Assembly: GCA_011048855.1 (NCBI GenBank)
Contig: DSCZ01000167.1
Location: forward strand, 1 to 5,177
From: Desulfobacteraceae bacterium
GTDB taxonomy: Bacteria; Desulfobacterota; DSM-4660; Desulfatiglandales; Desulfatiglandaceae
Length of the DNA stretch: 5,177 nucleotides
Direction of reading: 5' to 3'
Within the stretch, counting starts at the first letter, position 1. The number at the start of each line of letters is the position of its first letter. The notes under the pieces are model-generated. The model saw nothing but the letters and a program-made list of their open reading frames with translations. It had not been told where the DNA came from and did not search any database. This document shows positions 2 to 5,177 of this stretch, in pieces. Made by a program: the position numbers and the translations under genes.

Positions 2-1837
2 GGTAACGTGCTGTTCCGGCGCCGAGTGGTGCGTGGCGACGCAGCCGCGGCTTTTCCATGGTGCGCGGCCGGCGTCCGGAAAACCTACAAAACTTCGTTT
101 CTCGAGCACTGCTACCTGGAACCCGATGCCGGCGCCGGCTGGGTCGACTCCGACGGCACCCTGGTTATTGTCGCCTCTACGCAGAATCCTCACTACGATC
201 ATGCCGAAGTCGCGACCATCCTCGGGTTGGAGGACAGCCGTTTAAGAATCATACAGGCGGCGACCGGCGGTGGATTTGGATCCAAACTGGACCTCAACGT
301 CCAGGGGTTCATCGGACTCGCGCTCTATTACCTCCAGAGACCGGTGCGTTATATATACAGCCGGGAAGAGTCCTTTATCGCAACCAGCAAGCGCCACGCT
401 CTGATCATGGAAATGAAAACCGGGGCCGGAAAAGACGGCAGGCTGCGCGCAATGGAATGCCGAATTTTTTGCGACACAGGTGCCTATGGATCCTACGGTA
501 TCGCGGTGGCTTCCCGTGCCGCAGTTCACGCCTCTGGCCCATATGAGGTTGAACATGTCAACACCGAGGCGCTGTGCGTTTATACGAACAACCCGGTGGC
601 TGGAGCTATGCGAGGTTTCGGAACGCCCCAGGTTGCCTTCGCTCACGAATCCCAGATGGATCTCCTGGCACAGGAATTAGGCATCGACCCGTTCGAAATA
701 AGGCGCATCAATGCGCTGCGCGCCGGATCCGTAACCCCTACGGGGCAGAAGCTCGAAGCCAGTGTCGGAATAGCCGAGTGTCTCGACGCGGTAGAACAAA
801 AATATGAAAACGCCCGTTCCTCGCTCCGGAATGCCGCCCCTTCGCCGTTCGTCCGCCGGGGTGTTGGGTTGGGAGCCATGTGGTACGGCATAGGCAATAC
901 CGGGATGCAGAACCCGTCCACGGCGCAGGTTGAAATAAGCCTGGACGGCCAGGTCACGTTGTTCACGGGGTGTGCTGACATCGGCCAGGGTTCTACAACC
1001 GTGCTTGGTCAAATTGCGGCCGGGACGCTTGGCCTTGCTTCCGAGGATATCCGGATGGTTGTCGCGGATACGAAATTTACCACCAATGCAGGGGCGACCT
1101 CGGCCAGCAGGCAGACCTACATTTCCGGAAACGCGGTCAAGGATGCCGCGTCCAAGCTGGCCGATGTGCTGCTGACCGAAGCTGTCGACGCGATGAAAAT
1201 ACCGAAGGATTCCCTCGCGCTGGACGGAGGATTCGTCGTAAGCAAGAACGATCCGGGCCGTCGGACACCTTTCTCGAAGTTGGCGGCTCGGGCCCATCGC
1301 AAGGGAATACCGCTTCGGTGGCAGGGCTATTTCGACCCGGTGACCTCCCCGCTGGACCCGGAAACAGGGAGCGGTTCGCCGTATGCGACCTATGCCTATG
1401 CATGTCATGTAGTCGAGGTTACGGTCGATGTCACCACGGGAGAAGTGATGGTGGATCGGGTGGCAGCGGCTCACGACGTAGGCAAAGCCATACACCCGGA
1501 AGGTGTTGTCGGCCAGATCTGCGGGGGGGTGGCAATGGGTGTGGGATTTGCGCTGATGGAGGAATTTATACCCGGTGTAACGGCCTCTATGAAGGATTAT
1601 CATATCCCCACCACGAGCGACATGCCCGATGTGGTCCCGATCATCGTGGAATGCACCGAACCGACCGGGCCGTTCGGGGCCAAGGGCGTTGGAGAACCAG
1701 CGCTCATCCCGACCGCTCCTGCGGTGTTGAATGCCATTTCTCATGCACTGGGAACCAGGATATATCATCTTCCAGCCAACCTTGAACGGGTGCTGGAAGC
1801 CGCCCTGTCGAGCGGTCAATCTGAAAAAAGGAGATAG
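2..1837 (+). CDS. Molybdopterin-binding subunit of a xanthine dehydrogenase-family hydroxylase, probably nicotinate dehydrogenase (5' truncated)
   Basis: This subunit carries the molybdenum cofactor that hydroxylates an aromatic N-heterocycle with water; electrons leave through separate 2Fe-2S and FAD subunits not seen here. The frame is open from base 2 and gives 611 residues. The first residues (GNVLFRRRVVRGD) match an internal motif of the family, so about 150 N-terminal residues are missing upstream. Numbering from base 2, visible motifs are TQNP (60-63), GGGFGSK (89-95), AMRGFGTPQ with Arg204 where bovine xanthine oxidase has substrate-stabilising Arg880, GCADIGQG (323-330), and GAKGVGEP near the C-terminus, whose Glu565 (bases 1694-1696) is the expected catalytic base. 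The position of bovine Glu802, which contacts purines, appears to be Leu96, arguing against a purine substrate. Nicotinate is inferred from the enamidase and reductase genes that follow. The family call is firm; the substrate is inferred. E. barkeri splits this subunit into NdhL and NdhM, but here it is continuous. Confidence 0.9.
   Translation, partial: GNVLFRRRVVRGDAAAAFPWCAAGVRKTYKTSFLEHCYLEPDAGAGWVDSDGTLVIVASTQNPHYDHAEVATILGLEDSRLRIIQAATGGGFGSKLDLNVQGFIGLALYYLQRPVRYIYSREESFIATSKRHALIMEMKTGAGKDGRLRAMECRIFCDTGAYGSYGIAVASRAAVHASGPYEVEHVNTEALCVYTNNPVAGAMRGFGTPQVAFAHESQMDLLAQELGIDPFEIRRINALRAGSVTPTGQKLEASVGIAECLDAVEQKYENARSSLRNAAPSPFVRRGVGLGAMWYGIGNTGMQNPSTAQVEISLDGQVTLFTGCADIGQGSTTVLGQIAAGTLGLASEDIRMVVADTKFTTNAGATSASRQTYISGNAVKDAASKLADVLLTEAVDAMKIPKDSLALDGGFVVSKNDPGRRTPFSKLAARAHRKGIPLRWQGYFDPVTSPLDPETGSGSPYATYAYACHVVEVTVDVTTGEVMVDRVAAAHDVGKAIHPEGVVGQICGGVAMGVGFALMEEFIPGVTASMKDYHIPTTSDMPDVVPIIVECTEPTGPFGAKGVGEPALIPTAPAVLNAISHALGTRIYHLPANLERVLEAALSSGQSEKRR
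1828..1833 (+). promoter_or_regulatory. Ribosome binding site for the enamidase gene
   Basis: AAGGAG sits 8 bases before the ATG at 1842 and overlaps the last codons of the Mo-subunit gene. It decides the start: the frame stays open upstream to 1731, but that extension lies inside the preceding gene and lacks the conserved amidohydrolase N-terminus, which begins at this ATG (MPRTILTNIG). Confidence 0.85.
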
Positions 1838-1841
1838 AAGA

Positions 1842-3029
1842 ATGCCCAGAACAATCCTGACGAACATCGGAACGATTATCAGCGGTGACATAGCCGAACC
1901 GCTGCTCGATAAGGATACCATCTCGATCAAAGACGGCCTCATCGAACAAATTTCAACTTCCGCGGAGCTCAAACCAGAGGCGGGCGACACGGTGATCGAC
2001 TGCTCCGGAACCACGGTCACACCGGGCCTTATCGACTCCCACTGCCATGTCATCCTGGGGGATTATACTTCCCGTCAAAAGCAGCTCGGCTTCATTGAAA
2101 GCGAACTGCACGGCGGGGTGACCACCATGATATCTGCGGGGGAAGTACACCTCAGTGGGCGCCCGAAGGACCCCGCAGGCACGAAGGCGCTCGCGATCCT
2201 CGCCGCCAAAGCCTGGGCGAATTTCAGGCCCGGCGGGGCCAAGGTGCTGGGCGGTGCGTTGATTCTTGAAAAAGGCCTTGAAAGAAAAGATTTCGAAGAA
2301 ATGGCCCGTGAGGGGGTGCGCGTGGTTGGTGAAATCGGGCTCGGAAGCGTCAAAGAGCCGGAGGACGCGGCCCCGATGGTGGAGTGGGCCAGGGAGTTGG
2401 GCATGACGGTGATGATGCACACCGGGGGGACATCTATCCCGGGGAGCAGTACAGTCACCGCCGACCAGGTGATACGGACGAACCCTCATATCGCCTCGCA
2501 TGTCAACGGAGGGCCGACGGCCGTTGCGCTTGAAGAAGTCAAAAGGCTTGTCGATGAGACGAAACTCGCTATCGAAATCGTTCACTGCGGGAACCCGAAG
2601 ATGGCCGTCGAAGCCGCAAATCTCTGCGTAAAGGCAAAGGCTCTGGATCGTATGATCATAGGCAATGACGCCCCCTCCGGAACCGGGGTGGTCCCCCTGG
2701 GTGTCCTGCGGGTAATTAACCACCTCGCCGGCCTGACCGACGTCAAAGGCGTAGAAGCCGTTTGCATGGCTACAGGCAACACGGCACGCATTTACCGGCT
2801 GAATCGAGGGCTTGTTGCCGAAGGGAAGGAAGCGGACCTGGTTATCATGGACGCACCGATGGGTTCGGTGGGAGAGGATGCAGTCTCTGCAATCGAGGCC
2901 GGTGATGTTCCGGGAGTGGCGATGATTCTTGTGGACGGGGAAATCGTCGTCTCGAAAAGCAGAAACACCCCGCCACCGAAGCGGAAACCCACGGTTTCCC
3001 AATATGGTGGTGGAGAGGTCACAGCATAA
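1842..3029 (+). CDS. ena: Enamidase (1,4,5,6-tetrahydro-6-oxonicotinate amidohydrolase)
   Basis: Enamidase hydrolyses 1,4,5,6-tetrahydro-6-oxonicotinate to 2-formylglutarate and ammonia, the ring-opening step of nicotinate fermentation; it is a cytoplasmic Fe-Zn enzyme of the amidohydrolase superfamily. The protein has 395 residues, close to my recollection of about 385 for the E. barkeri enzyme. The N-terminal beta-sandwich strands (1-60) lead into PGLIDSHCH, giving metal ligands His67 and His69. Further ligand candidates are Glu164 in GEIGLG (in place of a carboxylated Lys), His193 in MMHTGG, His220 in SHVNGG, and the catalytic Asp276 in GNDAPSGTG. The C-terminus has the usual EADLVIMD and DGEIVV strands. 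Stretches such as HGGVTTMISAG, HTGGTSIPGSSTVTAD and KSRNTPP agree with the E. barkeri sequence as I remember it; no alignment was run. A 4-base gap and a strong Shine-Dalgarno site tie it to the Mo-subunit gene. Alternatives such as dihydroorotase-like enzymes fit less well. Confidence 0.92.
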   Translation: MPRTILTNIGTIISGDIAEPLLDKDTISIKDGLIEQISTSAELKPEAGDTVIDCSGTTVTPGLIDSHCHVILGDYTSRQKQLGFIESELHGGVTTMISAGEVHLSGRPKDPAGTKALAILAAKAWANFRPGGAKVLGGALILEKGLERKDFEEMAREGVRVVGEIGLGSVKEPEDAAPMVEWARELGMTVMMHTGGTSIPGSSTVTADQVIRTNPHIASHVNGGPTAVALEEVKRLVDETKLAIEIVHCGNPKMAVEAANLCVKAKALDRMIIGNDAPSGTGVVPLGVLRVINHLAGLTDVKGVEAVCMATGNTARIYRLNRGLVAEGKEADLVIMDAPMGSVGEDAVSAIEAGDVPGVAMILVDGEIVVSKSRNTPPPKRKPTVSQYGGGEVTA

Positions 3030-3082
3030 TGATCACCGCCCTATCAATTATATGCCATCTATTCCAGGGTAATTGCCAATGA
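3029..3082 (+). other. Possible 17-codon coupling or leader reading frame between ena and hnr
   Basis: The enamidase stop overlaps an ATG in the sequence TAATG, and GGAGAGG (3012-3018) lies 10 bases before it. The short frame encodes MITALSIICHLFQGNCQ and ends in a TGA that overlaps the reductase ATG (ATGA, 3079-3082). It therefore fills the intergenic gap exactly and could carry ribosomes from ena to hnr. It resembles no peptide I know. Chance is a fair alternative for so short a frame. Confidence 0.25.
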
Positions 3083-3085
3083 TAG
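3041..3085 (+). repeat. Imperfect inverted repeat around the reductase start codon
   Basis: CTATCAATTA (3041-3050) can pair with TAATTG (3070-3075) plus ATAG (3082-3085). The right arm is interrupted by six bases (CCAATG) that contain the start codon. The 19-base loop holds the likely weak ribosome site AGGG (3066-3069), 9 bases before the ATG. A hairpin here could limit initiation at hnr. The stem is AT-rich and short, so its stability is doubtful. It lacks a U-tract and is not a typical terminator. Confidence 0.3.
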
Positions 3086-4593
3086 TTGATCTGGAAAAAT
3101 GCATTGGTTGCGGTTACTGCGTCAGAGACTGTCCTGTTGGAGCAGTACGGCTGGTCGAAAAGAAAGCCGTAATACAGGAAAATTGCACAGAATGCGGAGC
3201 CTGTATCAAGGTTTGCGAGCAGGGTGCGCTCAAAAAAGATCCGGTACCCGCGCCTGGAGCCGTGATCTGCGATGCCTGCCCGATAGCCTGCAATGTGAAG
3301 GATGGATTCCCGGGCGCCTGCCACCGCTACCGGAATGAAGCAGGGCGCCTTGTGCGCGTGACACCCCTCCACTCCTTTGAAAACGTCGAAAACATCGTCG
3401 GGCCTGAACCTTCGGAAGTCATACGAACACCGATTGTAACCGGCATCGGTGCCGGCACCACCTACCCGGACTGCAAGCACGCGCCGGTGATCGTAGAAGG
3501 CAGCCGCAGCAATGTGGATGTCGTCACCGTGGTGACCGAAGCGCCTCTCAGCTACAGCTCGATCCTCGTCAAGATCGACACCGACGTGCCGGTGGGAGAG
3601 GAAGGAGCTGATGTGCTCGCTGGAAAGCGGAAGGTGGGCATCGTTATAACAGAACAATACGGCTCCAAAATGCTCTCGATCGGCGGGGTGAACCTTCTCA
3701 CCGGAAAAGACGGCATCGTGGTAGCCCGTACCATAGCCGATATCGCAAATAGAAAGCCGGTCAAGCTTGCGGTCAGAGAAGGAAGCAGGCTGGAGCTCCA
3801 GGTGGGTGAAACGCCGGTTATCAACGGAGACCGTCCTGCAAGCATGCGAGTGGGCTGCGGAAGTGCCACATTGGGACTGTTCGCCCCCCACTGCCGGGAG
3901 GCGGCCGATGAAGTTATCATCCTTGACAGCCATTTGACCAGCTTGATGAGCGAGCATGCGGCCGGCCGTTTCGTCGGTGCGGAACCTTCGGGGGTGAAGC
4001 TTGCATTCCGAATGAGCACCCCCGGGCGTTATTTTGGAGATCATGGCAGCGGATGGGGCGGAACTTCAATAACCGACCCCCTTGATTTAATCTCCAGCGT
4101 AGACATGACGGCGGCACGGCCGGGTATGACGATCTTTGTGACCGAGACCACCGGCCGGAACGGCTTACTTTACCGGGTGAACGACAGCGGTGGACTGAGC
4201 GAAATCCCGCTCACCCATAAATGCCGACAACTCCTGGAGGCGATCCGCGCCGCCTGCGAACCTTCGAGGGTTTCAGCCGTTTACATGGGCGGCACGGGAG
4301 GCAGCGCACGGGCGGGTGTAACGCTTTACCCGATAAAACTCACCCAAGCAGTGCACGGTTCCAGGGCCGTTTTAACGGTGGGCGGAAGCCCGGTGTATGT
4401 GCTTCCCGGCGGCGGTATTAATTTCATGGTGGACGTCGAGCGTGTAAAAACAGGGTCGTTTTACTGGACACCCACCCCGGCGACCATCTGCCCCGTAGAA
4501 TATACGATGACCAAAAAGGAGTATGAAGAAATGGGCGGCCATATCGAAGCGTTGAAACCTTTTCGACCCCCCGGAGGCGTTGCACCCGAGTGA
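3079..4593 (+). CDS. hnr: 6-Hydroxynicotinate reductase, ferredoxin-dependent iron-sulfur flavoprotein
   Basis: The predicted reaction is ferredoxin-dependent reduction of 6-hydroxynicotinate to 1,4,5,6-tetrahydro-6-oxonicotinate, the substrate of the adjacent enamidase. The 504-residue protein opens with a two-cluster ferredoxin domain: Cys8, 11, 14, 18 and Cys36, 39, 42, 46. A third group follows, Cys64, 67, 71 and 81 (CX2CX3CX9C). The E. barkeri enzyme is reported to hold two 4Fe-4S clusters, one 2Fe-2S cluster and covalent flavin, so this group is the natural candidate for the 2Fe-2S site. Residues from about 110 to 504 form a large domain with glycine-rich stretches (GDHGSGWGG 320-328, MGGTGGSARAG 403-413, VLPGGGINFMVD 441-452) that I cannot assign to a common fold. 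There is no signal peptide or membrane segment. ATG 3079 is preferred to an in-frame TTG at 3073; a stop at 3070-3072 excludes anything longer. The function rests on cluster content and gene context, not on an alignment. Confidence 0.8.
   Translation: MIVDLEKCIGCGYCVRDCPVGAVRLVEKKAVIQENCTECGACIKVCEQGALKKDPVPAPGAVICDACPIACNVKDGFPGACHRYRNEAGRLVRVTPLHSFENVENIVGPEPSEVIRTPIVTGIGAGTTYPDCKHAPVIVEGSRSNVDVVTVVTEAPLSYSSILVKIDTDVPVGEEGADVLAGKRKVGIVITEQYGSKMLSIGGVNLLTGKDGIVVARTIADIANRKPVKLAVREGSRLELQVGETPVINGDRPASMRVGCGSATLGLFAPHCREAADEVIILDSHLTSLMSEHAAGRFVGAEPSGVKLAFRMSTPGRYFGDHGSGWGGTSITDPLDLISSVDMTAARPGMTIFVTETTGRNGLLYRVNDSGGLSEIPLTHKCRQLLEAIRAACEPSRVSAVYMGGTGGSARAGVTLYPIKLTQAVHGSRAVLTVGGSPVYVLPGGGINFMVDVERVKTGSFYWTPTPATICPVEYTMTKKEYEEMGGHIEALKPFRPPGGVAPE
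4573..4577 (+). promoter_or_regulatory. Ribosome binding site for the UPF0280 gene
   Basis: GGAGG lies inside the end of hnr, 12 bases before the GTG at 4590. The spacing is somewhat long, but the GTG overlaps the hnr stop (GTGA), a classic coupling arrangement, and this favours it over the in-frame GTG 4632 or ATG 4635. Confidence 0.55.
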
Positions 4594-5177
4594 ACCGGGA
4601 GCAGACGATTCATGCGCTCGATTCCGGGGCCGTGATGGCTGAATGCGGTCCAATGAGGCTTGTTATCTCGTCGTTCGTCGGAAAGGTGCCCCAGAGAGAG
4701 ATGAACATTCGTGCGGCCAAGGAATCATTCAGTTTCCTGGCACGCGTGTCCGCCGTAAAAGACAGACTGCAGCATCCCCTCAAATCGGTACCGGACGACC
4801 TCAGCGAGCCAATAGCACGTGAGATGGTTCGTAGCGCCTGCATGATCGGGGATCCACAACTAACACCGATGGCTGCGGTCGCCGGGAGCCTTGCGGCTGC
4901 AACCGCAGACTTCCTGTTCGACCGGGGAATGACCCGCGTGATCGTAAACAACGGCGGTGATATTGCGGTGCGCCTGGCAGGCGGGCAAAAAGTCAGGGTG
5001 GGTGTCAGGGACGATGTCACCCGGAATTCATGGTCTCGCGTGATCGCGCTTGACGCCGGCCGCACTTCATGGGGCGTCGCCACAAGCGGACTTGGTGGAA
5101 GAAGCTTTACGTCGGGAATAGCATCTGCAGCCACCGTGATCGCTGCAACGGCATCGGTCGCCGACGCCGCCGCAACG
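4590..5177 (+). CDS. UPF0280 family protein, ApbE-like fold (3' truncated)
   Basis: The frame is open for 196 codons to the window end without a stop. The family is usually about 240-250 residues, so perhaps 50 are missing. Family features seen are ECGPMRLVISSFVGK (18-32), DPQLTPMAAVAGSLA (88-102), VNNGGDIAVRL (119-129), and VATSGLGGRSFTSG followed by a segment ending ADAAAT (163-196). The GGDI, ATSG and DAxAT elements recall ApbE, the FAD:protein FMN transferase, and UPF0280 structures are grouped with ApbE by fold. The ApbE loop containing His-x-x-Asp-Pro-x-Thr-Gly, normally between ATSG and the final helix, is absent, so identical chemistry cannot be assumed. The biochemical role of the family is unknown to me. 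Its start overlaps the hnr stop by four bases, so the two proteins are probably made together; a role in flavin attachment or reductase maturation is inferred only. The start could instead be ATG 4635, just before the conserved ECGPMR block. Confidence 0.85.
   Translation, partial: MNREQTIHALDSGAVMAECGPMRLVISSFVGKVPQREMNIRAAKESFSFLARVSAVKDRLQHPLKSVPDDLSEPIAREMVRSACMIGDPQLTPMAAVAGSLAAATADFLFDRGMTRVIVNNGGDIAVRLAGGQKVRVGVRDDVTRNSWSRVIALDAGRTSWGVATSGLGGRSFTSGIASAATVIAATASVADAAAT

Follow-up and report, generated by a model that had tools for sequence, protein, structure and literature searches.

A UPF0280 gene coupled to 6-hydroxynicotinate reductase probably encodes a dedicated maturation factor with an ApbE fold

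Why does a gene of the UPF0280 (COG2122) family follow, across an overlapping stop and start, the gene for a reductase of nicotinate breakdown? The pair closes a 5,177-nucleotide stretch from a Desulfobacteraceae bacterium (contig DSCZ01000167.1), hereafter the window, which carries four co-directional genes: a molybdenum hydroxylase subunit, an enamidase, a homologue of 6-hydroxynicotinate reductase (HNR) and a truncated UPF0280 gene. The HNR of E. barkeri was reportedly found by Alhapel et al. (2006) to hold covalently bound flavin, and to our knowledge the route by which HNR gains this flavin is unexplained. We found that HNR and UPF0280 genes pair in most of the examined genomes that have both, E. 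barkeri included, and for this reason it is highly probable that UPF0280 is a dedicated HNR maturation factor, whatever its chemistry. That it would be a divergent ApbE-type flavin transferase acting on HNR is about an even prospect. The pair is laid out as follows.

3079..4593, forward strand: HNR homologue of 504 amino acids, from an ATG at 3079 to a TGA stop at 4591-4593
4590..4593, forward strand: GTGA overlap of the HNR stop with the UPF0280 start, a GTG at 4590-4592
4590..5177, forward strand: UPF0280 / COG2122 protein of the HNR-linked long subfamily, 196 of about 283 residues, its open reading frame (ORF) running past the window end

The GTGA junction that an earlier note on this DNA had read here agrees with the ORF positions.

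How general is this arrangement? Scanning the contigs of one genome for each species, we obtained 49 HNR loci, three of which (L001, L008, L023) end too early to be assessed. UPF0280 lay near HNR in 42 of the 46 assessable loci, directly downstream in 41 and about 3.5 kb downstream in L044. On plasmids, searched at E limits of 1e-20 for HNR and 1e-8 for UPF0280 (query from L051) with adjacency judged by coordinates, all 26 records with HNR have UPF0280 alongside, at most about 580 bases off; annotation was viewed for five of them. A further draw took 297 genomes of the phylum to which strain NaphS2 belongs (Desulfobacterota by our label); in each we scored no more than 5 to 8 candidates and assigned their class by score and model coverage (the UPF0280 of G582, cut by a contig end, was counted as long). 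HNR was found in 48 of these genomes and HNR-type UPF0280 in 48, with 47 in common (Fisher p 1.7e-52, uncorrected for shared ancestry), and UPF0280 stood just downstream at 45 of the 51 HNR places. Two HNR genes (G549 C300, G551 C58) have UPF0280 on another contig only, G405 C240 is an HNR gene of the L047 type described below, and in G577, G520 and G630 the place is split or lies at the end of a contig. The enrichment next to HNR that the earlier note had proposed to look for is therefore present in all three surveys.

By record title, the pairing extends over Desulfobacteraceae with their relatives, Clostridia, Planctomycetaceae and both Alpha- and Betaproteobacteria. HNR occurs in 2 of 294 genomes from the phylum of the Planctomycetaceae genome G008, with UPF0280 adjacent in both; the HNR of the Planctomycetaceae locus L049 nests within an Adiutrix/Smac51 group on our tree, so transfer or mis-binning of that locus is possible. 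The class of the Clostridiaceae record G005 yielded four HNR places in 3 of 391 genomes, two with UPF0280 adjacent (G005 C147 and G276) and two without (G377 and a second G005 copy). Frames of 867 and 818 amino acids around HNR had looked like fusions of the two proteins and were rejected as such, UPF0280 being a separate frame in both.

UPF0280 also turns up apart from HNR. Of the 27 plasmid records that contain it, the 27th is a Hydrogenophaga plasmid (L132, Hydrogenophaga sp. BPS33) on which a module bounded by IS1071 elements and containing UPF0280 and a Rieske oxygenase is repeated (1099-12840); the record gave no HNR match at E 1e-20. In G591, a genome with no HNR found, a long-type UPF0280 (L148:9101-9967) lies beside genes that look by eye like those of a TRAP transporter.

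The E. barkeri locus links the pairing to the reductase for which covalent flavin was described. We had two genomes of its genus, G276 and G704, and UPF0280 adjoins HNR in both. The enamidase and 2-hydroxymethylglutarate dehydrogenase of G704 are identical to PDB 2vun and 3cky, both E. barkeri proteins, so G704 either belongs to E. barkeri or cannot be told apart from it. Its genes run hnr, UPF0280, hgd, ndhF, ndhS, ndhL, ndhM, transporter, enamidase (some of these names assigned by position), and the open frames of hnr and UPF0280 overlap; in G276, NdhL matched 3hrd. The window HNR is 49% identical over its full length to the HNR of L067, an E. barkeri near-twin, which is in turn 98.2% identical to that of G704. 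Like the window, the nicotinate fermentation cluster of E. barkeri joins HNR, enamidase, molybdenum hydroxylase and UPF0280; there, hgd adjoins UPF0280. The near-twin G276 gave no DUF39/HcyBio match and contains a single UPF0280, which is therefore unlikely to serve the homocysteine role known for the family.

What kind of protein is UPF0280? By sequence, the window protein is a member of UPF0280 / COG2122 (PRK04334): truncated as it is, it scored 139.6 bits (E 1e-40) with NCBIfam NF003322 (PRK04334.1-2), whose full-length cut-off is 290. Its closest PDB match by sequence is 2o34 (DVU1097; E 6.6e-5), and the three remaining matches are SAKe6BE proteins at E 0.04-0.06. Fold comparison of P0122, a full-length relative 86% identical to the window protein, found both the DVU1097 (2o34) fold and the ApbE fold, in line with what the earlier note had supposed. 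The Pfam ApbE model (cut-off 25.6) gave 19.9 bits for the truncated window protein, 22.4 for P0122 and, just over the cut-off, 26.4 for the relative P0128. Three elements shared with ApbE can be placed in the window.

4953..4964, forward strand: GGDI element at UPF0280 residue 122
5079..5105, forward strand: ATSGLGGRS element with ATSG at residue 164
5163..5177, forward strand: DAAAT element at residue 192, counterpart of the ApbE Asp/Thr element

GGD is present in all 51 HNR-type UPF0280 proteins. The HxxDPxTG loop is missing: the truncated window protein has no H..DP.TG, and the strict motif occurs in 0/51 long and 0/11 short UPF0280 proteins vs 7/15 ApbEs from like genomes. The motif pattern described in the earlier note, three elements kept and the loop absent, is thus accurate. 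Since fewer than half of the ApbEs (the same 7/15) carry the strict motif, we rejected it as a hallmark of ApbE and took a histidine 10-20 residues past TSG as the fairer test. Among the 14 of 15 ApbEs with both anchors, all 14 have this histidine, vs 2/51 long and 0/9 short UPF0280 proteins.

The family contains two distinct subfamilies. In passages of PMC5764234, mutant fitness in D. vulgaris shows COG2122 to be needed, with DUF39 and a NIL/ferredoxin protein, for homocysteine synthesis, and work cited there found that MA1715 mattered at low sulphide in Methanosarcina. UPF0280 is therefore not wholly a family of unknown function, as the earlier note had it, although the passages of literature examined gave a phenotype for COG2122 and no biochemical activity; in parts of the openly licensed literature, we found neither the name UPF0280 nor anything on flavin attachment to HNR. 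We compared the two forms in 20 HNR-bearing genomes, hand-chosen from HNR loci and searches rather than drawn at random. Of the 15 genomes that have HcyBio, 12 carry the short form (about 245 amino acids; a fragment in one of them), as against 0 of the 5 that lack HcyBio. The long form is in 18 of the 20, missing from G377 and G404, and both forms occur together in 10 (the short form of G011 is a fragment at a contig end). Profile comparison places both in one family (E 4e-28), and their signatures differ. Short proteins have CTSS and GHS in 11/11, with a cysteine fully conserved in 11/11; long proteins have GGRS in 44/51 and no conserved cysteine, the best column reaching 22/51. The short subfamily (DVU1097/2o34, MA1715, DvMF_0044) is tied to DUF39/HcyBio and not to HNR; we presume DVU1097 and MA1715 to belong to it from their length. 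Occurrence and cysteine conservation differing in this way, each form tracks a separate client, and a sulphur relay based on cysteine is not simply transferable to the form that accompanies HNR. The window gene probably encodes an ApbE-fold protein with a new dedicated client, HNR, in a family whose phenotype is already known elsewhere.

How might such a protein mature HNR? We propose that UPF0280 would bind flavin adenine dinucleotide (FAD) and Mg2+ in an ApbE-like cleft formed by its GGD, TSG and ADxxAT elements, and would move the flavin mononucleotide (FMN) half of FAD to HNR with release of AMP. The acceptor would most probably be Ser262 of the HNR sequence GCGSA. Electrons could then pass from the ferredoxin domain through a cluster at Cys64/67/71/81 to the bound flavin and on to reduction of the pyridone ring. 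The HNR features in question are these.

3079..3249, forward strand: 2[4Fe-4S] ferredoxin domain, HNR residues 1-57, from domain and PDB searches
3268..3321, forward strand: Cys64/67/71/81, conserved in 56/56 HNRs and likely ligands of a further iron-sulphur (Fe-S) cluster
3856..3864, forward strand: Cys260-Gly261-Ser262 within GCGSA, with Ser262 the modification site proposed post hoc

The predicted HNR structure is a confident model (pLDDT, the predicted local distance difference test score, 93.4). Fold and PDB searches clearly matched the ferredoxin part alone and gave no convincing match for the catalytic part, which is no proof of a new fold. Five plasmid HNRs (L050-L054) lack the N-terminal ferredoxin cysteines and retain Cys64/67/71/81. 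A ferredoxin-NADP reductase is annotated in four of these loci, the exception being L050, and together with the lost cysteines this suggests a different electron donor.

Ser262 emerged from an alignment that sets 63 HNRs with UPF0280 (L044 included) against five without; the count omits four contig-edge rows and three further rows whose genomes carry UPF0280 at another place, and the partial HNRs L023, L036 and L040 were unaligned. Sixty-four columns are invariant in the 63, and only Ser262 is altered in all five others, to Ala, Ala, Ala, Gly and Thr; separate rates of change predict 0.09 such columns vs the 1 observed. The serine is kept in the three HNRs whose genomes carry UPF0280 elsewhere and in three pairs examined later (E. 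barkeri G704, G901 and G1006). Thr466, changed in four of the five, and Cys260, kept in all five, are alternative sites. On the tree, the UPF0280-free HNRs fall in three places: L045-L047 form one clade, L065 sits among Clostridia that otherwise all have UPF0280 (99/97), and L068 leaves the midpoint root on a very long branch. Because Ser262 was found by looking, we offer it as a hypothesis. Reading GSAT as an inverted ApbE motif is not supported, since Thr264 varies in UPF0280-paired HNRs, with Ala at this place in L053 and Ser in both L050 and L143. L045, L046 and L047 make up a separate HNR class, 44-45% identical, with enamidase and molybdenum hydroxylase genes, no UPF0280 nearby and ACGAA in place of GCGSA.

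Several observations weigh against flavin transfer at this serine. The post-TSG histidine of ApbE is missing from 49 of 51 long UPF0280 proteins, and the spacing from TSG to ADxxAT is much shorter (median 24 vs 42 in ApbE). ApbE partners carry the target motif D-x-x-[ST]-G-A-[ST], according to passages of PMC12052999, whereas 0/56 HNRs do; the same passages describe ApbE / Ftp (FAD:protein FMN transferase, PF02424) as usually periplasmic and anchored to the membrane, though sometimes cytosolic, while HNR is probably cytosolic. PMC5764234 relays the view that the homology stops short of the flavin-binding region, and PMC12068725 calls the related MA1715 a sulphur-trafficking protein. The near-twin G276 also has a canonical ApbE. 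UPF0280 is not nearby in 4 of the 46 assessable contig loci (L024, L045, L046, L047), nor beside L065, whose contig ends about 680 bases past HNR, or L068, the second G005 HNR; no long UPF0280 was found anywhere in the assemblies of G377 and G404, for which completeness is not stated. Ser262 itself was chosen after looking, from five sequences, and most other invariant residues are kept in HNRs lacking UPF0280. The tree program marks the L065 and L068 branches as long, support is weak at one of the joining forks (83/53), and a single change satisfies the program's group test, in which unlabelled rows do not count, so a single origin is possible. The dedicated flavin-attachment pair of the earlier note accordingly stands in part: the surveys support the dedicated pairing, and flavin attachment we infer, given a UPF0280 without the ApbE histidine loop and an HNR without the ApbE target motif.

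If not flavin transfer, then what? The alternative that survives best, though we think it unlikely, is that UPF0280, with no part in flavin chemistry, delivers sulphur to HNR or helps it form persulphides or Fe-S clusters, the kind of role proposed for MA1715 in methanogens. HNR does contain Fe-S clusters, the short subfamily has its invariant cysteine, and the passages of PMC5764234 suggest a persulphide role for COG2122 with DUF39 and NIL/ferredoxin; the trafficking label of MA1715 (PMC12068725, in part) points the same way. The HNR-linked subfamily, however, has no such cysteine, the coexistence of short and long forms in half of the 20 genomes makes them look non-interchangeable, and the five aligned plasmid HNRs without ferredoxin cysteines still have UPF0280.

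Somewhat less probable again is that HNR flavinylates itself, for example at Cys260, with UPF0280 as a flavin-delivery chaperone or stabilising partner. Many covalent flavins form spontaneously, Cys260 is present in 56/56 HNRs, and UPF0280 lacks the ApbE histidine loop. Against this, the function-tested ApbE-fold proteins in passages of PMC4767422 and PMC12052999 act either as transferases or as FAD pyrophosphatases. The five UPF0280-free HNRs retain Cys260 as well, which leaves the pairing unexplained.

We doubt still more that UPF0280 takes part in N-heterocycle breakdown itself, as an enzyme that converts one of the small-molecule intermediates. It does sit in catabolic operons, with UPF0280, molybdenum hydroxylase and enamidase all present in 23 of 31 wide-flank loci. 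Yet in 6 of the 31 the window queries left the enamidase and/or molybdenum subunit undetected beside UPF0280 (a molybdenum hydroxylase is annotated in L052 and L053; L050 has neither in 21.5 kb), and L045 has an other-class HNR, enamidase and molybdenum subunit with no UPF0280. The E. barkeri pathway is also said to be complete without UPF0280. Chance, for which the earlier note had left room, is exceedingly improbable, with 42/46 loci, 26/26 plasmids and 47 genomes common to 48 and 48, from varied bacterial groups, against it and nothing found in its favour.

A divergent flavin transferase for HNR would matter beyond this locus. It would attach flavin with catalytic residues and a target motif that differ from those of ApbE, possibly of use as a protein label, and a lead to the function of COG2122 in the homocysteine synthesis of methanogens and sulphate reducers. 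A wider and more tentative possibility is that COG2122 proteins use the ApbE fold to install cofactors, each on a specific client, the long form flavinylating a serine of cytosolic HNR without the ApbE histidine or target motif and the short form doing a matching job on DUF39/HcyBio. If so, proteins would have a second system for their flavinylation, and a homocysteine gene would be recast as a maturation factor. The short subfamily also works with a ferredoxin-type partner (PMC5764234, in part), as we propose for the long form. The pair offers a direct test for both HNR and COG2122: one reductase, one neighbour gene and one candidate serine. Remote homology of HNR to DUF39/HcyBio (PF01837) we treat only as a lead: a VDVVT-type stretch is common to HNR residues 146-160 and HcyBio residues 47-62, and profile comparison was not significant (E 0.025-0.053, with an unrelated decoy at E 0.027; score 25.1, with 2 of 60 column shuffles at 24 or more).

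The rest of the window fits a catabolic operon.

2..1837, forward strand: molybdopterin-binding subunit of a xanthine dehydrogenase-family hydroxylase (Pfam MoCoBD_1 and MoCoBD_2), 5' end open, nicotinate dehydrogenase-like by context
1842..3029, forward strand: enamidase, matching 2vun (E. barkeri enamidase) at 507 bits, E 2.5e-151

The Pfam and 2vun matches thus place HNR in an operon with enamidase and molybdenum hydroxylase. The enamidase assignment is firm on sequence similarity, and with a match this strong, breakdown of an N-heterocycle by a nicotinate-type reductive route is likely. The molybdenum subunit is a single chain in the window (2-1837) and is split in two (NdhL, NdhM) in E. 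barkeri. Finally, in three plasmid loci, two genes annotated as 'amino acid synthesis family protein' follow UPF0280 (L051:12488-13647, L053:12446-13710, L054:12365-13527); ORFs that look alike by eye follow HNR in L153:9048-9626 and lie beside the enamidase in the E. barkeri-type cluster, L067:529-1314.

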